Source of the DNA: Deltaproteobacteria bacterium | GTDB taxonomy: Bacteria > Desulfobacterota > Syntrophia > Syntrophales > UBA2210 | Direction: 5' to 3' | Length of the DNA: 56,852 nt | Assembly: GCA_019313695.1 (NCBI GenBank) | Contig: JAFDAS010000002.1 | Coordinates: 1-56,852, forward strand | In this document: piece by piece, positions 4,656 to 11,957 of the stretch | Layout: each line of letters begins with the position of its first letter | Numbering within the stretch: position 1 is the stretch's first letter | Program-made: the position numbers and the translations under genes | The notes under the pieces: model-generated | Told to the model about the DNA's origin: nothing | Seen by the model: only the letters and a program-made list of their open reading frames with translations | Databases searched by the model: none

Positions 4656-5288
4656 TTAAACTTTTTCTTTTTTGAAGATCATCAGGGGCCTTTCATTTGG
4701 CCCCCGTATTTCCCTTCCAATATTGCGGAATCCCAGCTTTTGAAAAAAACTGCAGGCAATATGAGAAGCCGGTTTTGCAATGCAGGCAGATTCATCATTT
4801 TTCTGAAGGATAGATAGTCCTTTCAGGGTTAATTCTGTTCCGATCCCCTTATTTCGAAAATCAGGAAGGACAGCCAATGTATAAAACTCGGGCATTTCAC
4901 TGATGGCAGGCATCTGATTTTTTGAGGATTCAATAAACTCTTCCGTTTTGTCTGTTCTTATTTTAGGAGAGCAAAGCCGCCTGAAGGCCGCCGAGAAAAT
5001 TCTGTGATCCGAAAAAATCCTCTTTATGACAGCGATCCCAAGAGACGCTTTGTGCTTCATTATTTCTTTTTCAAGGCACCGGCTGTCATAGACGAACAAC
5101 GCAAGCCCGACAACCTTTCCCCCTAATTCCTTCACCAGGAGCAGGGTATTTTCAGAGGTCACAACCATGGGGTAGAATTTGTTTTTCAGGAACTCTTCTC
5201 CCAATCTGGGCAGGAGGGAATGCGGCAGAGAATCACTGTGGATTCTGGCAAGAGCTTCGATGTCTGATTTTACGGCTTCTCTAATCAT
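4656..5288 (-). CDS. GNAT-family N-acetyltransferase
   Basis: 210 residues. The acetyl-CoA loop is in LPDFRNKGIGTELTLKGL (R-x-x-G-x-G type), with the preceding strand EFYTLAVLPD and the C-terminal FFQKLGFRNIG typical of GNAT enzymes. An N-terminal stretch IREAVKSDIEALARIHSDSL begins the fold. It is the last gene of the minus-strand RiPP-like operon, 57 bases after the nucleotidyltransferase gene. Substrate unknown; modification of the peptide product or self-protection are both possible. It is a second GNAT besides the one fused to the peptidase at 7054-8106. Confidence 0.85.
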   Translation of the reverse strand: MIREAVKSDIEALARIHSDSLPHSLLPRLGEEFLKNKFYPMVVTSENTLLLVKELGGKVVGLALFVYDSRCLEKEIMKHKASLGIAVIKRIFSDHRIFSAAFRRLCSPKIRTDKTEEFIESSKNQMPAISEMPEFYTLAVLPDFRNKGIGTELTLKGLSILQKNDESACIAKPASHIACSFFQKLGFRNIGREIRGPNERPLMIFKKEKV

Positions 5289-5345
5289 GGTTTTGCGGAG
5301 GCTGAGGCCGGTGATTTCGCGGAAAAATTCTTTCTTGCGCGGTCG

Positions 5346-6521
5346 CTAAACTTTAAAGACGCGTGACAACACCTCTCTGATTCGGTTAAGATAGTGCTTG
5401 TAATTCATGTCGGCCTCGGAGATATAGCTTCTCTGGGCCAGGATATCCTTCGGTGGGAATAGTGTCCTCCCCACGAACTTCAACTTTTTCACCAGGCCTT
5501 TATTCATGGATAAATGTATCAGATAGCTGAGGCCGGGTGTGCGTTTATTTTCTGCAGCTTTGCGCATGAATATCTTTTCGGGAATACTGAATCTTTTGGG
5601 CTTAAGTTTCAGCAAAACATCTTCCGGGACGTTAGCTTTAATAAAATAATGCGAAAAATAGAGGGTTGTATAGACCATTTTATTAAGGTTAAATTTGATG
5701 GTGTCTCTGACCAGAAGGTCCCAGTCCAGATCTTCCCCATAATAATTGATGGCTCTGTCAATATCACAAAAATAGCTGAGTTTGTTTAGGGAGTGAGTAA
5801 CCCGGAGGGCATGTTCGGACAGGTGTATAATAAGATGGTGCGGAGACATAACCCATGTTTTGGTGTCTGCGATATTTGTCCTTACGGCATCACGCCAGAT
5901 ATCCTCCATTTCAATATATCCGATATACGATTCGTTGGGTATTGTTGAATTGACGAAGTGCCAGTGGACATGAAAAGAAGGGGAGTTTTTAGCGGGGTTT
6001 CTGTAGTCGAGAGTTGTCAGGTAGGTTGAGTTAAAATCAACATAGTCAACAGATCGATCTGCCGGGGAATATCCCAGCTTTTTCAACAGTTCATCTGTTT
6101 GATAGAGATCTCCATTTTTTACAAGGAGGTCAACGTCCGACATGGGGCGCAGGGCCAGATTGCCGTATGCCGTTTCGGCAAGAGCCGCTCCTTTCATCAC
6201 GATTACCTGAATTCCTCTCTGATGAAACAGACCGAGAACCTTTTTAAGCTCTTCAAAGATAAGGGCATTTTTTGTGGCGCTCAGGTAGTAATCTTTTTTC
6301 AGCTCTTCTGTTACATATTCTGGAATATCGTAATGCGCTGCAATCTCGGGAAGGTGGCTGAAAACCAGGGGTGAGACGCTTTCACCTCTCGCCTTTTCCA
6401 GAAAAACGTTCCAGTCAATATCCAGTAGTTCCGGAAGATTAGTTTTTTCCGTCCTGCAGCAGTAAAGCAGTAAGTGATCTTCGCTTGACCAGGTCAATTC
6501 AATTCCCCAAAATGTCGCCAC
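5346..6521 (-). CDS. Nucleotidyltransferase family protein (NTP_transf_5 type)
   Basis: 391 residues. The block VMKGAALAETAYGNLALRPM followed by SDVDLLV (residues 108-134) is the G-x-x-L/A-x-x-x-Y-x-x-x-x-x-R-x-x-x-D-x-D-L-L-V pattern of the uncharacterised nucleotidyltransferase family PF14907; the two Asp of DVD would bind metal. Members of this family occur in lasso-peptide clusters, where in pseudomycoidin-type pathways one acts after a kinase to decorate the phosphorylated C-terminal serine. Here it shares the operon with an HprK-like kinase and a precursor ending in Ser, so the same role is plausible. The start is GTG at 6521, 15 bases after the hicA stop. Confidence 0.85.
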   Translation of the reverse strand: MATFWGIELTWSSEDHLLLYCCRTEKTNLPELLDIDWNVFLEKARGESVSPLVFSHLPEIAAHYDIPEYVTEELKKDYYLSATKNALIFEELKKVLGLFHQRGIQVIVMKGAALAETAYGNLALRPMSDVDLLVKNGDLYQTDELLKKLGYSPADRSVDYVDFNSTYLTTLDYRNPAKNSPSFHVHWHFVNSTIPNESYIGYIEMEDIWRDAVRTNIADTKTWVMSPHHLIIHLSEHALRVTHSLNKLSYFCDIDRAINYYGEDLDWDLLVRDTIKFNLNKMVYTTLYFSHYFIKANVPEDVLLKLKPKRFSIPEKIFMRKAAENKRTPGLSYLIHLSMNKGLVKKLKFVGRTLFPPKDILAQRSYISEADMNYKHYLNRIREVLSRVFKV

Positions 6522-6536
6522 TATTTTCTTTATAGT

Positions 6537-6770
6537 CTAAAGGCCCAAATAGTTGACCAGATCTTTTTTCTCTAATCCACTCTGTTTTAATATGTCGCTA
6601 AGTGTCCCTTTAGCTAAAGTTTTATGTAAAGGAACGATTGTCTTAAAAGTTTTTCCCGGAGTAACCTTTCTTAAGGAAATATGGCTCCCTTTTTGCCTTA
6701 CTTTTTCAAAACCGGCTTTTTGCAACACTTTGATTAAGTCGGCTCCTGAGATTGTTGGCAGTTTGGTCAT
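6537..6770 (-). CDS. hicA: HicA-type mRNA interferase toxin (pair 1)
   Basis: 77 residues with the YcfA/HicA dsRBD-like fold: SGADLIKVLQKAGFEKVRQK, then GSHISLRK with the catalytic His, then TIVPLHKTLAKGTLSDILKQ. HicA toxins cleave mRNA until blocked by HicB. Its ATG lies one base after the upstream hicB stop (TAAAATG), so the pair is co-translated. It is embedded between the peptidase-GNAT gene and the nucleotidyltransferase gene of the RiPP-like operon, with 15 bases to the next start. Confidence 0.9.
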   Translation of the reverse strand: MTKLPTISGADLIKVLQKAGFEKVRQKGSHISLRKVTPGKTFKTIVPLHKTLAKGTLSDILKQSGLEKKDLVNYLGL

Positions 6771-6771
6771 T

Positions 6772-6996
6772 TTATGCTGTTATTTCTAATGAGGTGAAAA
6801 TCGGTTCGGATTTTTCGACAGGCATATCTTCGGTTCCAAAACTTTCAATATACAATTCAATTGCTTCTTGAAGATTTTTTCTGGCTTCCTCGAAAGTTTT
6901 TCCTTGAGATGTAACACCAATCTCTATAGATCGAGCTACGAACCAGTCTTTTTCCTGTGTAATAATAGCGCTCAATTTATATGCCAAATGAACCAC
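6772..6996 (-). CDS. hicB: HicB-type antitoxin (pair 1)
   Basis: 74 residues with the HicB core: KDWFVARSIEIGVTSQGKTF then EEARKNLQEAIELYIESF, an RNase H-like fold lacking catalytic residues. No separate DNA-binding helix-turn-helix or ribbon-helix-helix follows, so it is the short HicB form. The annotated GTG is only one base from AAAGGAG; a TTG three codons downstream, giving MAYKLSAII, has better spacing and may be the true start. Gene order (antitoxin first) matches pair 2 at 10475-10971. Confidence 0.88.
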   Translation of the reverse strand: MVHLAYKLSAIITQEKDWFVARSIEIGVTSQGKTFEEARKNLQEAIELYIESFGTEDMPVEKSEPIFTSLEITA

Positions 6997-7053
6997 ACTC
7001 CTTTACTTGTAACTTGCTTTTTTTGACCCTCTTTGCAAATAAACGCCTTCATT

Positions 7054-8106
7054 TTACCAAGATTTGATATCCTTTACCAGAACAATTCTCAGGCGTGAGG
7101 TTTTTTTAGCCTCTTCTTGAAGCTGTTCGTTCAGTTCAGGAATGGAAATTTGGCGGAACCCTGATTTTCGATAAAGGTTGTTCGCGGGTTTGGCATCCTC
7201 AAAGACCAGAAGCTTAATTTCTGAAGCGCCATGTTTCGCTGCTATATCCGCAGCCATATTTGTCAATTTTTCGCCGATTCCCATTCTCCGATAGCGCCAA
7301 TTTACCTTCATACCAAAAAGCCACCAGCCTGTATAAGGATAGTCACTTTCTTGAAACTCGGAAAGAGTTACACTGCCGATAACCATATCTTTTTGCTTTG
7401 CTACAAGCCAGTATCCTGAATCTTTGGGATTTTTGAGCTGTTCATACAAGGCATTCGCGGGATTTTCTGACTCAGGCTGTTGGTTATACCTGTAAAGCAG
7501 GGAGAGCGAAGAGGCATCGTCAGGAGTGGCAATTTTATATCGAAAGTTCTCTTTCACCAATTTTTTGGCTAAGAAGCAGTAAAACTCAACACTTTGAAGT
7601 TTCTCCAAAATAATGCCCAGTAATCTACGCCCTTTGTGCTTTACTTTACTTCCTATGGGATAAGTCCACCGGCTGAATGGGGATAGCCAAGCAAAGAATA
7701 AGTTGATTATCCGATGAAGTTTTGTATTTAGTTTTCTTTCTCTCCCGTTTCTTTCAATGGCTGTTACCCGGCCAAGGATCCTTTGAGTATCTACCCCTTC
7801 AGGTTGACCGAAGGCGGCATCTCCTTTAATGAAAAATACCGTTCCGCTACCCTTTATTGTTTTTCGGATCACACGGTGTACGATTGCCTGATCATCCATA
7901 GTCTTATATAAGACCACATCACCGACTCTGATGGGGAAATTCCACAGTGGGCTTACAGTAATCAGATCTTCGTCCTGAATAAAAGGCCGCATACTGAAGC
8001 CCTTTGCCTGAAAACGGATGGATGTGCCTCTTTCGAGGAGATCGTTGCTCAATTTTAATAGACTGGAGTTGCTTAAAGGGACGGGGCCTTTCACTTGTCT
8101 AAACAT
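7054..8106 (-). CDS. S26-like signal peptidase domain fused to a GNAT acetyltransferase
   Basis: 350 residues in two domains. The N-terminal part (about 1-130) is S24/S26 peptidase-like: FSMRPFI with nucleophile Ser38, VGDVVLYK, then IVHRVI with His77 where bacterial enzymes have the catalytic Lys, and FIKGDA. This is the Ser-His arrangement of SipW/ER-type signal peptidases. A hydrophobic stretch around INLFFAWLSPF may be a membrane anchor. The C-terminal part (about 190-345) is GNAT: VNWRYRRMGIGEKLTNMAAD with the acetyl-CoA loop, then PANNLYRKSGFRQI. It overlaps the upstream kinase gene by 8 bases. Likely roles are leader removal and acylation of the new amine of the peptide; this is inference. 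Confidence 0.8.
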   Translation of the reverse strand: MFRQVKGPVPLSNSSLLKLSNDLLERGTSIRFQAKGFSMRPFIQDEDLITVSPLWNFPIRVGDVVLYKTMDDQAIVHRVIRKTIKGSGTVFFIKGDAAFGQPEGVDTQRILGRVTAIERNGRERKLNTKLHRIINLFFAWLSPFSRWTYPIGSKVKHKGRRLLGIILEKLQSVEFYCFLAKKLVKENFRYKIATPDDASSLSLLYRYNQQPESENPANALYEQLKNPKDSGYWLVAKQKDMVIGSVTLSEFQESDYPYTGWWLFGMKVNWRYRRMGIGEKLTNMAADIAAKHGASEIKLLVFEDAKPANNLYRKSGFRQISIPELNEQLQEEAKKTSRLRIVLVKDIKSW

Positions 8107-8980
8107 TTCTTACAAAATCGATGATTCTTTTATCCGGCAGGAAATTAAGCTCATAACAGGGCAGCTTGTTTGCCATACGATCAAGCAGGCCTAATGTGTA
8201 ATCCATTCCTTTTTGATCCCACAGTGGGGGGAAAGACCGGGTTAGAAACATTGAAATTGCCTCTGCGCCCTTTTTGGGGACAGTAGAATTCTCTTTTCCA
8301 TGTTTCAGAAAAAATACTTTACGAATTGGCATTCCCTTCGGTGACACTTCCCTAAAATCACCGTGCCATGGTGTTCCGTACATCCAGAACTGCCCGTTCT
8401 TTTCCCTTACAATAATCCTGTCATCATTCAATACTGTTGCGCCGCTTTCAAACCATAATTTTGCAATTGTTGATTTGCCGTGAGTTGATTTCCCTGAAAA
8501 AAGATGACCATAACCGTTATCATCAATAACAGCACAAGCATGTAACAATACTCCTTTACGAAGTGATGCGAGTAGGGTTATCATCAGGATCTGATTTAAG
8601 GGATATCCTAAAAGATCTGGAAAAATACGATTTGGGATATTGCCTCTGATATAGACGTTACCGGATTTAAGATCTGGCTCTAGGATAACCATGGTTTCAG
8701 GAAGAAGACCTGACTCCATGGATTCGTTCTGCAGGACATATTTTCCGAGGTTGCTGTAAAGAGACCAGTTGCTATCCGAATCGAATATCTTTCTTTTTTC
8801 TTTTATTTCAGGAATACGGTTGTGGTGTACACGAAGCTTTATCTCAGCGCTATAGCCTGTGGTAAGCTCATCGTTGATATTTTTAACTTCAAATTCAGGC
8901 AGAGGCCGATCAAAAAGAAAAGATATGCTAATATCAGCTATAACTACCGTAAATTCTTTCGGTTCTTTTCCATTTACCAC
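8099..8980 (-). CDS. HprK-like serine kinase of RiPP clusters
   Basis: 293 residues. A P-loop FSGKSTHGKST (about 161-171) is followed by the NDDR block (about 185-188), as in the catalytic half of HPr kinase. The residues around LLHACAVI and GTPWHGDF are typical of the short HprK homologues found beside PqqD proteins. No HPr or PTS genes are nearby. In lasso systems such as paeninodin, homologous kinases phosphorylate the C-terminal serine of the precursor, and the peptide encoded just upstream here ends in Gly-Ser. The start is GTG at 8980 with GGAAGGA 11 bases upstream; the 3' end overlaps the peptidase-GNAT gene. Confidence 0.85.
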   Translation of the reverse strand: MVNGKEPKEFTVVIADISISFLFDRPLPEFEVKNINDELTTGYSAEIKLRVHHNRIPEIKEKRKIFDSDSNWSLYSNLGKYVLQNESMESGLLPETMVILEPDLKSGNVYIRGNIPNRIFPDLLGYPLNQILMITLLASLRKGVLLHACAVIDDNGYGHLFSGKSTHGKSTIAKLWFESGATVLNDDRIIVREKNGQFWMYGTPWHGDFREVSPKGMPIRKVFFLKHGKENSTVPKKGAEAISMFLTRSFPPLWDQKGMDYTLGLLDRMANKLPCYELNFLPDKRIIDFVRNV

Positions 8981-9152
8981 AATATTATTATCCTTCCGGA
9001 AGTTTTTCTTGAATCACCATTTTTTGTGGGTTTCATGGCGTAAAAGCAAAATTACGGGAGTTTTTTTAATTACAATTGATTTAAGTGACAATCAAATTTG
9101 ACCGGGAGCGCACTCGCAAGTCCCGCCCTGTAGGCGAGGGGCTTCACTTAAA

Positions 9153-9344
9153 CTATGAACCCACAATATTTTGGCAGCTGCTGGCGGCAAGTCCAATTTT
9201 ACACGGCGATTTCCCGGCCCCACCTTTTGCACTACCAGCGACAGTTGCCTTACATGCAGCTAAAACAGCGTCCTCGATTTCCAGCTTGACCTGACTTACT
9301 TGTGGCTTTTTATAGTATTTATGGGTTTTTTCTTTTGGCTTCAT
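9153..9344 (-). CDS. Candidate RiPP precursor peptide, 63 residues
   Basis: A 63-residue peptide with a very good ribosome site (AAGGAG about 7 bases before ATG). The N-terminal half is lysine-rich and leader-like: MKPKEKTHKYYKKPQVSQ, then VKLEIEDAVLAACK. The C-terminal half is small-residue-rich (TVAGSAKGGAGKSP) and carries three Cys in all, at 31, 48 and 57, finishing SSCQNIVGS with Ser63 as the last residue. It lies 19 bases downstream of the radical SAM gene and upstream of the kinase gene, in the same operon as a PqqD-like chaperone. No cleavage site can be fixed; a change from leader to core somewhere after AVLAA is a guess. The 172-bp gap after it may separate expression levels. Confidence 0.8.
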   Translation of the reverse strand: MKPKEKTHKYYKKPQVSQVKLEIEDAVLAACKATVAGSAKGGAGKSPCKIGLAASSCQNIVGS

Positions 9345-9363
9345 TTTTTATCTCCTTTCTTGC

Positions 9364-10449
9364 CTAAGATTTCTTTAAATTAAATGCCTCTGCCCGAAGA
9401 TGGGCAATCTGACAGAGATATTCTACAGGGGCTTCCGGATTACCGTTCTCCAGCCATCCCCAGCCCGGGCATTGACCACACAAAGATATTAATTCACACT
9501 TGCCGCACGGATAGTCTCCTTCAGGTTTCAGGGTTAAAAATTCAGGAATAGATTTACTCCAGCCCTCTTCAAAAGGGCCACAACGCAAATCATGATTCTG
9601 AAACCTGGTCATTTCACAGGCGCTCATTTTTCCGTATGGATCTATATGGAATGTGGAGATGCCGGCACCGCAGATATAAAGATTATCGGATTCAGATGGA
9701 CCTGCAAACTTTTCGCAAAACTCTCGCCATTCTTTAACCCTTTTCTCATCAGACAAATCCAACTTTACCACCTCTTCAGGTGACAACCTGAATTTGCAAG
9801 GTGCTTTAGAGCCGTCCAGTCTTGGGTTAAGTGCGGGGTCAAAACGGAACTTCATCCCCAATCCTTCAGCGTATTCTTTTATCTGCCAGAGATCATCTTT
9901 GTTCAAGGTCATTGCCATGGTTTTCAACCCAAGGGTAATCTTCCGCTCCAAAAGCAGGTCAATACCCCTTTTGCATCGCTTAAATGAGCCGGAAATTCCG
10001 GTTACTCTTTCATGCGTTTCACTTGTTACACCATATAAAGTTATCTCCACTTTATACGGCGGATATTGAACAAGATAGTCGGCAATCTCCGGGGTAATAA
10101 GAGTCCCATTTGTAAACAACGTAACGACGAACCCTTTCTTCTTCGCGTATGTATATATTTCCAGAAAGTCTTCCCGTAAGAGGGGTTCTCCGCCGGTTAT
10201 CAAAAGCCACAGGCATCCAGCTTCTGCGATCTGGTCAAGGATATTGAATACTTCTTCAGTCGTCAGTTCTTTCTCGATTGCCTCCTGATCATTTGCCGGC
10301 AGGTTGCAGTAACAATGTGCGCATCGCAGATTGCAGCGGAAGGTAAGCTCAAACGATCCGCCGAGCGGAATCCTCCTTGTCACAGCCTTGTCATATAGCC
10401 GTTCCCCAAACTGAGCAAGGCTAATCTCCGGTATATGCGGACATTCCAT
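9364..10449 (-). CDS. Radical SAM/SPASM peptide-modifying enzyme
   Basis: 361 residues. The radical SAM cluster motif FRCNLRCAHCYC places the CxxxCxxC cysteines at 39, 43 and 46, followed by the GGEPLLR motif. The C-terminal third is a SPASM domain with many Cys (CGAGISTFHIDPYGKMSACE, then YPCGKCELISLCGQCPG), which binds auxiliary Fe-S clusters. Such enzymes make thioether, C-C or epimerised residues in ribosomal peptides. With a PqqD chaperone upstream and a Cys-containing precursor immediately downstream, the substrate is almost certainly the 63-residue peptide. The ATG lies inside a 52-bp sequence that is repeated at 10997-11046. Confidence 0.92.
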   Translation of the reverse strand: MECPHIPEISLAQFGERLYDKAVTRRIPLGGSFELTFRCNLRCAHCYCNLPANDQEAIEKELTTEEVFNILDQIAEAGCLWLLITGGEPLLREDFLEIYTYAKKKGFVVTLFTNGTLITPEIADYLVQYPPYKVEITLYGVTSETHERVTGISGSFKRCKRGIDLLLERKITLGLKTMAMTLNKDDLWQIKEYAEGLGMKFRFDPALNPRLDGSKAPCKFRLSPEEVVKLDLSDEKRVKEWREFCEKFAGPSESDNLYICGAGISTFHIDPYGKMSACEMTRFQNHDLRCGPFEEGWSKSIPEFLTLKPEGDYPCGKCELISLCGQCPGWGWLENGNPEAPVEYLCQIAHLRAEAFNLKKS

Positions 10450-10477
10450 GATTCTTACTCTTCTGTTATGGCTTTTA
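10426..10477. repeat. Direct repeat flanking hicBA, copy at the radical SAM start
   Basis: About 52 bp covering the start of the radical SAM gene and a remnant of the pqqD-like 3' end. Read on the minus strand the remnant encodes IKAITEE-stop, against INAITEG-stop of the intact gene. It matches 10997-11046 in all but about six positions and one 2-base gap. The hicA stop codon lies inside this repeat. Confidence 0.85.
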
Positions 10478-10702
10478 TACTTTCTGAAGCAATTGAAAGT
10501 ACTTCTCTCTGCTCATCCCGATTATACGCATGTTGTTTTTGATAACGAATGCCGGCACTTCTTTGTGTTTCGGTATGACCACAGGCCTGATAGCTCCGGG
10601 ATAATGATAAATAACATGATCACCTTTTGTCCGAGCATACACGCACCCGGCCATTTCAAAAATCTTGATCTGAACTTGATAATGAGTCGGCTTAATTTTC
10701 AT
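10475..10702 (-). CDS. hicA: HicA-family toxin (pair 2)
   Basis: 75 residues of the YcfA/HicA family: THYQVQIKIFEMAGCVYART, then KGDHVIYHYPG with the putative catalytic His, then RPVVIPKHKEVPAFVIKNNM and a C-terminal SREKYFQLLQ helix. It differs clearly from pair 1, so it is a separate acquisition rather than a recent duplicate. The ATG overlaps the hicB stop by one base. It is co-oriented with the RiPP-like operon, and its stop codon is supplied by the flanking direct repeat. Confidence 0.85.
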   Translation of the reverse strand: MKIKPTHYQVQIKIFEMAGCVYARTKGDHVIYHYPGAIRPVVIPKHKEVPAFVIKNNMRIIGMSREKYFQLLQKV

Positions 10703-10971
10703 CAGGCAGACACTTCGATAGGCGTAAATCCAACCAACTCTTTGCGCGCGCTCAATGTGTCGGCACTAATTTCCTCCAATCCGCAATCTTCAATAAACTG
10801 CTCAAATGTCCCCATCTTTTTCGTTTCTTCAATATTGATTGTAATTGCTTCCAGGAGATTTTTTTTTGCCTGCTGGACATCCTCGCCGCAGGAAGAAATA
10901 TCCAATTCAGGACAATATGAAACATACATGTTGCCCTCTTTCCATACCTCTTCAGTCAAACGTATTTTCAT
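10702..10971 (-). CDS. hicB: HicB-family antitoxin (pair 2)
   Basis: 89 residues when started at ATG 10971 (MKIRLTEEVWKEGNMYVSYC), which has AAGGAG eight bases upstream; an upstream in-frame start would run into the direct repeat and lacks such a site. The core PELDISSCGEDVQQAKKNLL then EAITINIEE is the HicB fold. The C-terminal ADTLSARKELVGFTPIEV is an unassigned tail. It forms a co-translated pair with the downstream hicA and separates the PqqD-like gene from the radical SAM gene. Confidence 0.85.
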   Translation of the reverse strand: MKIRLTEEVWKEGNMYVSYCPELDISSCGEDVQQAKKNLLEAITINIEETKKMGTFEQFIEDCGLEEISADTLSARKELVGFTPIEVSA

Positions 10972-10996
10972 GGGTTTAACTCCTTCGTAATCTGGT

Positions 10997-11046
10997 CTCC
11001 GATATGAGGACATTCCATAATTCTTAGCCTTCTGTTATGGCGTTTA
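10997..11046. repeat. Direct repeat flanking hicBA, copy at the pqqD end
   Basis: About 50 bp covering the last codons and stop of the PqqD-like gene, followed on the minus strand by a ghost of the radical SAM start (ATGGAATGTCCTCATAT, encoding MECPH, as in the real gene). It is the partner of 10426-10477. Confidence 0.85.
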
Positions 11047-11314
11047 TTTCTTCTAATTGCATGAGGTGTTCCACGATATCCTTTTCGGCTTCTTCAGGCG
11101 TTACTTCGAATTCTTCAATCAGCTTTTCTTTTATTTTCTCGACTTTCGTTTTGCCGTCGATCAGCTCCCAAATGTACGCGGCGGTTTCATTCAGAGTATA
11201 GATGCTTTCCAAGTCACCTACGTTTTGCCTGATGGGAACCAGGATAAATTCATCGGCTATCTTTCTGGATACGATGGAATCGCTCTTGCTGTAAACTTTA
11301 TCAAGAAAATTCAT
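11024..11314 (-). CDS. PqqD-like peptide chaperone (RiPP recognition element)
   Basis: 96 residues of the PqqD winged-helix family: DEFILVPIRQNVGDLESIYT, LNETAAYIWELIDGKTKVEK, then LIEEFEVTPEEAEKDIVEHL. The LNETAAYIWELIDG block is the hallmark of these domains, which bind RiPP leader peptides and present them to the modifying enzyme. It is the first gene of the minus-strand operon, behind a good sigma-70-type promoter at 11352-11380. Its 3' end is duplicated next to the radical SAM gene, which suggests that the two genes were adjacent before hicBA was inserted. Confidence 0.9.
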   Translation of the reverse strand: MNFLDKVYSKSDSIVSRKIADEFILVPIRQNVGDLESIYTLNETAAYIWELIDGKTKVEKIKEKLIEEFEVTPEEAEKDIVEHLMQLEEINAITEG

Positions 11315-11380: not shown

Positions 11381-11415
11381 ACTTCTTTTTACGGTTAACC
11401 GGAGGCAAAACACTT

Positions 11416-11925
11416 GACAGGATAACAGGATAAGCATGATATAAATCCAAACAATATCAAGTTAATCCTGTCAGAAGATTTTTCAACAGCCCGCAGGTGG
11501 TAATATGGAATATAAAGAAGTGACGGAGACAATTATCGGCTGTGCTTATCGTGTTTATAATAAAATGGGTTTTGGTTTTCTTGAAAGCGTATATGAAAAA
11601 TGCTTGCTCATAGAATTGCATAAAGCAGGCCTTAAGGCAGAATCACAAAAGCCAATTACAGTTTACTATGAGGATGAAATCGTAGGACAATTCGTAGCTG
11701 ACATTATAGTTAATGATACGATTATCCTGGAGTTGAAGTCAGTAAGAAAGATTATTAAGGCGCATGAAGTTCAGTTGGTTAACTATCTTGTTGCTACTGG
11801 AAAACCTGTGGGGCTGATTCTTAATTTTGGAGAACAAAAAGTTGAAATTAAGCGTAAGGTCAAGGATCTAAACTAAGAGATCAACAGGATAAGGAAAATT
11901 ATCAAGTCAATCCTGTTATCCTGTC
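11416..11925. repeat. Inverted-repeat-bounded cassette around a GxxExxY gene
   Basis: The cassette is bounded by GACAGGATAACAGGAT at 11416-11431 and its exact reverse complement at 11910-11925. Additional related words (AATCCTGTC near 11462, CAACAGGATAAG near 11882, and TATCAAGTTAATCC versus TATCAAGTCAATCC on the two sides) show that both flanks are built from the same repeat family. No transposase is encoded inside. Confidence 0.75.
11505..11876 (+). CDS. GxxExxY protein (PD-(D/E)XK nuclease-like)
   Basis: 123 residues of the GxxExxY family: the name motif is GFLESVYE near residue 24. The nuclease-like core is in QFVADIIVNDTIILELKSVR (D-x(n)-E-x-K), with ending VNYLVATGKPVGLILNFG. The family is widespread as scattered single genes, and its function is not established. 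It lies between the RiPP-like operon and the ABC exporter, within an inverted-repeat cassette, on the opposite strand from the operon, so it is probably a passenger. The ATG has only a weak upstream AGGTGG. Confidence 0.9.
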   Translation: MEYKEVTETIIGCAYRVYNKMGFGFLESVYEKCLLIELHKAGLKAESQKPITVYYEDEIVGQFVADIIVNDTIILELKSVRKIIKAHEVQLVNYLVATGKPVGLILNFGEQKVEIKRKVKDLN

Positions 11926-11957
11926 TAAAAAACAGATGAACTGTTAGGTTAAACAGT

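Follow-up and report, generated by a model that had tools for sequence, protein, structure and literature searches.

A pqqD/radical SAM operon junction as a serial hotspot for toxin-antitoxin pairs

Our results show that the junction between the pqqD-like and the radical SAM genes of a peptide-maturation operon is a serial hotspot for toxin-antitoxin pairs in relatives of the DNA analysed here. The original prediction, made from the window (the whole analysed stretch of 56,852 nucleotides), concerned the single hicBA pair found at this junction; the hotspot, which it missed, is the larger finding. We consider it likely that the two genes were adjacent in the ancestor, that an insertion duplicated their junction, that the duplicated piece then eroded, and that the site captured further pairs repeatedly, with spread of the cassettes through pqqD.

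The duplicated junction in the window

The operon reads, on the minus strand, pqqD-like gene, hicB, hicA, radical SAM gene, small Cys ORF, HprK-related gene, S24/GNAT gene and NTP_transf_5 gene (Table 1). The PqqD-like protein is 74-89% identical (amino acids) to PqqD of close relatives, and counterparts of the small Cys-tail ORF, 34-54% identical, lie 3' of the radical SAM gene in relatives.

Table 1. Features of the operon and its duplicated junction (window positions)
Feature	Position	Strand	Basis
Upstream repeat copy: true pqqD end + ghost radical SAM start	11002..11054	-	direct repeat, 85% identity
Downstream repeat copy: ghost pqqD 3' end + true radical SAM start	10433..10485	-	compared with empty junctions
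pqqD-like gene (PqqD family peptide chaperone), complete, true 3' end	11024..11314	-	PF05402 E 3.8e-18
hicB-like antitoxin gene	10702..10971	-	ORF; position before hicA; preceded by AAGGAG; overlaps hicA at TGATG
hicA toxin gene	10475..10702	-	PF07927 E 1.4e-10; aligns to 1whz, E 0.0041
Radical SAM/SPASM-type peptide maturase gene	9364..10449	-	PF04055 E 4.6e-22; many SPASM-family NCBIfam matches below cut-off
Small conserved ORF, Cys-containing tail, candidate precursor peptide	9153..9344	-	counterparts in relatives
HprK-related kinase gene, same operon	8099..8980	-	TIGR04355 E 1.9e-7, below cut-off; syntenic in relatives
S24 peptidase-like + GNAT fusion gene, same operon	7054..8106	-	syntenic in relatives
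NTP_transf_5 gene, same operon	5346..6521	-	PF14907 E 2.1e-48; syntenic in relatives

The pqqD end and the radical SAM start occur twice, as a direct repeat of 53 nt (45/53 identical) with a start-to-start spacing of 569. A 2-nt gap lengthens the repeat slightly, to about 10426 (CATATACCGGAGA / CATAT--CGGAGA). It had been predicted as 88% identical over 50 nt; the repeat is real, with the corrected figures of 85% over 53. Its ungapped score of 31 is far above chance: the best direct repeats spanning 354 control points scored 10 in the median and 13 at the 95th percentile.

The true pqqD stop (11024-11026) lies inside the upstream copy, which also carries the ghost radical SAM start, ATGGAATGTCCTCATAT from 11018 downwards, with the ghost ATG at 11016-11018. 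In the downstream copy, the ghost pqqD end (..KAITEE-stop) stands immediately ahead of the true radical SAM start at 10449, and the hicA stop (10475-10477) falls within this ghost. As predicted, therefore, both ghosts can be read and hicA ends inside the repeat. Note that the region where ribosomes presumably bind for the radical SAM gene is retained in the downstream copy. When the window's genome was searched with the whole 635-nt segment, no further copy of the repeat appeared, just a 53-nt hicA piece on contig C184 and short chance-level matches; an origin of the repeat as a dispersed element was rejected on this ground. The C184 piece (positions 1501-1553 of locus L067) corresponds to the hicA 3' end, is 91% identical and lies among many other toxin-antitoxin-like genes.

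The hicBA pair of the window is apparently intact. HicA keeps its conserved histidine, that of the KG-D/G-H motif, aligned with the one in 1whz. The most likely hicB start is at 10971 (MKIRLTEE, with AAGGAG ahead) and not at 11013, and the 14 codons upstream of it derive from the ghost. The HicB-like protein had no significant Pfam match, is 33% identical to the other HicB of the window and gave a weak best match to a HicB structure (E 0.73); its relatives at loci L158 and L123 gave weak UPF0150 or DUF7387 matches only.

That second, different hicBA lies at 6537-6996, between the S24/GNAT and NTP_transf_5 genes, and is absent in genome G035 (locus L097); its flanks were checked and hold no long repeat. 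Other operon junctions with toxin-antitoxin pairs, in L097 and in locus L028, likewise gave no clear long duplication; those of L028 carry ParDE-like and MNT/HepT-like pairs (5240-5724 and 7039-8706). Large internal deletions affect both the radical SAM and the HprK gene of L097 (contig C234), with a toxin-antitoxin pair after each. A GxxExxY (PDDEXK_3) gene adjoins the operon at window 11400-11940, with 26-nt inverted repeats on both sides (GACAGGATAACAGGAT type). The two flank ends are also present in L035, about 280 nt apart and with the gene missing, which would fit an insertion of the gene into a dispersed repeat.

Empty, filled and stacked junctions in relatives

Relatives of the radical SAM protein were drawn from a set of 84,980 species genomes; some of the loci are short MAG contigs with doubtful phylum labels. 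In seven loci (L027, L030, L032, L033, L034, L035 and L036) pqqD lies directly beside the radical SAM gene with one copy of the junction, while L031 carries hicBA with a repeat of its own. This comparison of orthologous operons, which had been proposed as the check, supports the predicted former adjacency of the two genes and the duplication of their junction by the insertion; neither a hicBA that is always without a junction repeat in relatives nor a repeat that is an unrelated dispersed element was found. In several of the empty junctions, the final codons of pqqD (GAAGG) occupy the expected ribosome-binding position of the radical SAM gene, suggesting that its ribosome-binding site would lie within the last codons of pqqD.

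Six species of the window's genus have no close radical SAM homologue, and therefore offer no near before-and-after pair. No such pair of one strain exists either, so that the insertion itself is not directly seen. No relative of the protein was found in viral contigs, and searches of the window's own order (155 genomes), of a 395-genome phylum sample and of the family and class of genome G227 added only L005, L073-L076, L092 and L094. Radical SAM proteins 76-88% identical to that of the window region 5346-11314 occur in bins labelled as several other phyla, which may reflect horizontal transfer or misbinning.

The filled junctions carry hicBA, DUF4160/DUF2442, ParDE-like and DUF2281-VapC cassettes and a MazF-like gene, singly or in arrays. 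The pqqD ahead of these cassettes is complete or truncated at its 5' end, and most cassettes are followed by a pqqD 3' piece of about 27 to 117 nt; every pair is co-directional with the operon, with closely spaced genes. ParE, PIN, PemK, DUF4160 and DUF2442 are the family matches among the cassette proteins; the names ParD and DUF2283 are our own assignments, presumed from position and from recognition of the proteins, without a family match.

The simplest cases are L031, where the same hicBA (92% DNA identity) is followed by a 117-nt copy of the pqqD tail at 91%, and L029, where a ParDE-like pair is followed by a 27-nt ghost of the tail. The array of L026 reads pqqD, DUF4160/DUF2442, pqqD tail, ParD remnant, MazF-like gene, DUF2283-like gene, hicB remnant, DUF2281 gene, truncated pqqD, second DUF4160/DUF2442, pqqD tail and radical SAM gene; ghosts of the pqqD end and of the radical SAM start stand ahead of its hicB remnant (2570-2600). 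L028 reads DUF2281-VapC, pqqD fragment, DUF4160/DUF2442, pqqD tail, hicB remnant and pqqD tail. Its DUF2281-VapC lies between a hicB remnant and the pqqD fragment, and the same joints are found in L026, where VapC is largely lost. L095, on a 240-kb contig of G227, a genome scored 100% complete, reads pqqD, DUF4160/DUF2442, pqqD tail, hicB remnant and pqqD fragment, and then comes a second, more distant operon. In all three arrays hicB is truncated.

Origin and spread of the cassettes

The left joint of DUF4160/DUF2442 follows pqqD residue 93, and pqqD sequence is taken up again in the ghost at about residue 71-73; this holds for both copies in L026 and for L095. In L028 the right joint is the same and the left side looks deleted. 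Because these joints are shared, the joint probably represents one event that later spread. Ghost length differs between cassettes, with about 65-85 nt for DUF4160/DUF2442, 53 (window) and 117 (L031) for hicBA, and 27 for the ParDE-like pair of L029. In L026 the radical SAM start, ATGGAATGTCCTCATATACCGGAGA, precedes hicBA; this ghost looks to have suffered a short deletion in L028 and L031 and a 2-nt deletion in the window. On the 3' side of hicA, pqqD sequence returns near residue 62 in L031 and near residue 88 in the window, a difference consistent with erosion.

The pqqD copies themselves suggest how the cassettes moved. In L026 pqqD is a mosaic, with residues 1-79 nearest to the window/L029 group and residues 80-93 nearest to L095, and the truncated second copy changes ancestry likewise, so that the switch holds in both cassette-linked copies. 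The cassettes seem to have carried along a piece of pqqD, which recombined into the resident gene, and the mosaic thus points to spread by homologous recombination through pqqD. As to a single target sequence behind both copies, those of L095 are identical over 56 nt, pqqD of L026 is mosaic, and the copies of the window are too short and diverged for assignment. The window ghost is 86% identical to the intact junction of G035, from the same order, and 79% to its own upstream copy, and the upstream copy is similar to the left flank that this hicB cassette has in L026, nearest-neighbour calls on ghosts of 40-60 nt being weak. Hence the two copies of the window may have differed in ancestry from the outset. 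Since they need not share one source, their 15% divergence is no measure of age, and the suggestion that it marks an old event falls.

The observed repeat, empty sites, several cassette types, variable ghosts and mosaic pqqD of L026 would be explained as follows. Initially, pqqD and the radical SAM gene would be adjacent, with the ribosome-binding site of the latter inside the last codons of the former. As the molecular step of the first insertion we tentatively infer one-ended homologous plus illegitimate capture, or else template switching, presumably with no dedicated recombinase. The duplicated piece would then erode, leaving 117 nt in L031 and 53 in the window, the same site would capture other toxin-antitoxin pairs in relatives, with differing ghost lengths, and the inserted cassettes would be exchanged between lineages by homologous recombination within pqqD. 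The ghosts may persist because insertions that sever the radical SAM gene from its start signals are lost.

An unlikely alternative order of events is that pqqD and the radical SAM gene were first duplicated in tandem, and that hicBA then replaced the middle (the first radical SAM body and the 5' part of the second pqqD), leaving the outer scraps. This would account for the presence of both ghosts in the window and in L026, and further downstream L095 does have another pqqD/radical SAM pair, a more distant one. However, no locus was found to retain a fragment of a radical SAM body between pqqD and the radical SAM gene, short pqqD pieces are all that the DUF4160/DUF2442 and ParDE-like insertions leave, and the ghost starts vary by cassette.

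Placement of the pairs by integron-type or other site-specific cassette insertion seems quite improbable to us. It draws on attC-like palindromes found after the ParDE-like pair of L028, after the DUF2283 gene of L026 and, three in a row, in contig C16 of G192, but at the pqqD/radical SAM junction no such right end was seen on hicBA, DUF4160/DUF2442, DUF2281-VapC or the L029 ParDE-like pair. Moreover, repeat length varies between 27 and 117 nt, which does not suit a fixed core site, and the window's own genome lacks the attC-like pattern. As the cause at this junction the attC-like pattern was rejected; it fits some pairs in relatives, not this site. The palindromes, TAACAACAGGCC...GGCCTTGAACGTT, lie 3' of toxin-antitoxin-like genes (L167 on G192 C16; L026 2434-2500; L028 5724-5785), and the three consecutive ones suggest an integron-like cassette array in G192.

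Junction-duplicating insertion is also preferred to a recruitment of hicBA as regulator of the peptide operon, with the repeat as an accident, which we regard as very improbable. The shared direction and close spacing of all junction pairs would suit a regulator, but selection against disruption of the operon also predicts co-orientation; besides, unrelated pairs use the site, several are truncated, and seven relatives lack any. That the arrangement is an assembly artefact of metagenome bins is scarcely credible: most loci are MAG contigs, several below 6 kb, but L031, an independent genome, has the same hicBA and a repeat of its own, and the L095 array lies on its 240-kb contig.

Known systems and other hicA loci

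The closest known phenomenon is the insertion of restriction-modification systems with long, variable target duplications (Nobusato et al. 2000, via PMC1643837, PMC3874152, PMC3031569). As described in the passages of these papers that we draw on, both cases share an addiction-type complex, a variable direct target duplication (of the order of 100 bp) and no linked mobile element; a single-copy unoccupied site in relatives and long repeats that vary between events are seen here too. In contrast to those descriptions, several unrelated toxin-antitoxin families are stacked here at a single junction of an operon, and their later movement went by recombination via copies of the host gene.

Chromosomal toxin-antitoxin insertion loci are described as plastic, with an unelucidated integration mechanism, examples being ccd in folA-apaH and mazEF/parDE in relA-mazG (PMC7167474). 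In those cases, as here, different pairs occupy one intergenic site and are absent where the genes of relatives adjoin, whereas the relevant passages of PMC7167474 do not mention a junction duplication. Integron toxin-antitoxin cassettes are also small, arrayed and in one orientation; the cassettes at this junction differ in having no attC at their ends, no fixed recombination site and varying ghost lengths. In the open-access literature, we found no report joining toxin-antitoxin insertion with long target duplication.

With its filled, empty and stacked states and readable scars, the junction offers a footprint of toxin-antitoxin entry into chromosomes, and ties the mobility of these pairs to the phenomenon described for restriction-modification systems. 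More tentatively, and with considerable doubt, we propose as a general reading that toxin-antitoxin pairs might settle in tight operons by long-target-duplication insertion that regenerates both neighbours, the duplicated host-gene ends then serving as homology arms for recombinase-free exchange and stacking between species. The junction itself leads to the prediction that such duplications next to toxin-antitoxin pairs should turn up genome-wide.

hicA genes were listed in 14 genomes, and 54 loci besides that of the window were examined with their flanks for a direct repeat scoring at least 18 at a module-sized spacing (450-780). Such repeats flanked 8 of the 54 loci and none of 133 control points (Fisher p 3e-5), the controls being arbitrary genomic points, unmatched to intergenic positions. 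The excess at hicA loci is real, but only about three of the eight support the same kind of event. In L141 one repeat copy lies partly within hicA, in L134 the repeats are a pair of attC-like sites, and those of L149, L157 and L123 look dispersed. The three that resemble target duplications are L152, with a 31-nt intergenic duplication, and L104 and L158, with duplicated gene-end-like pieces.
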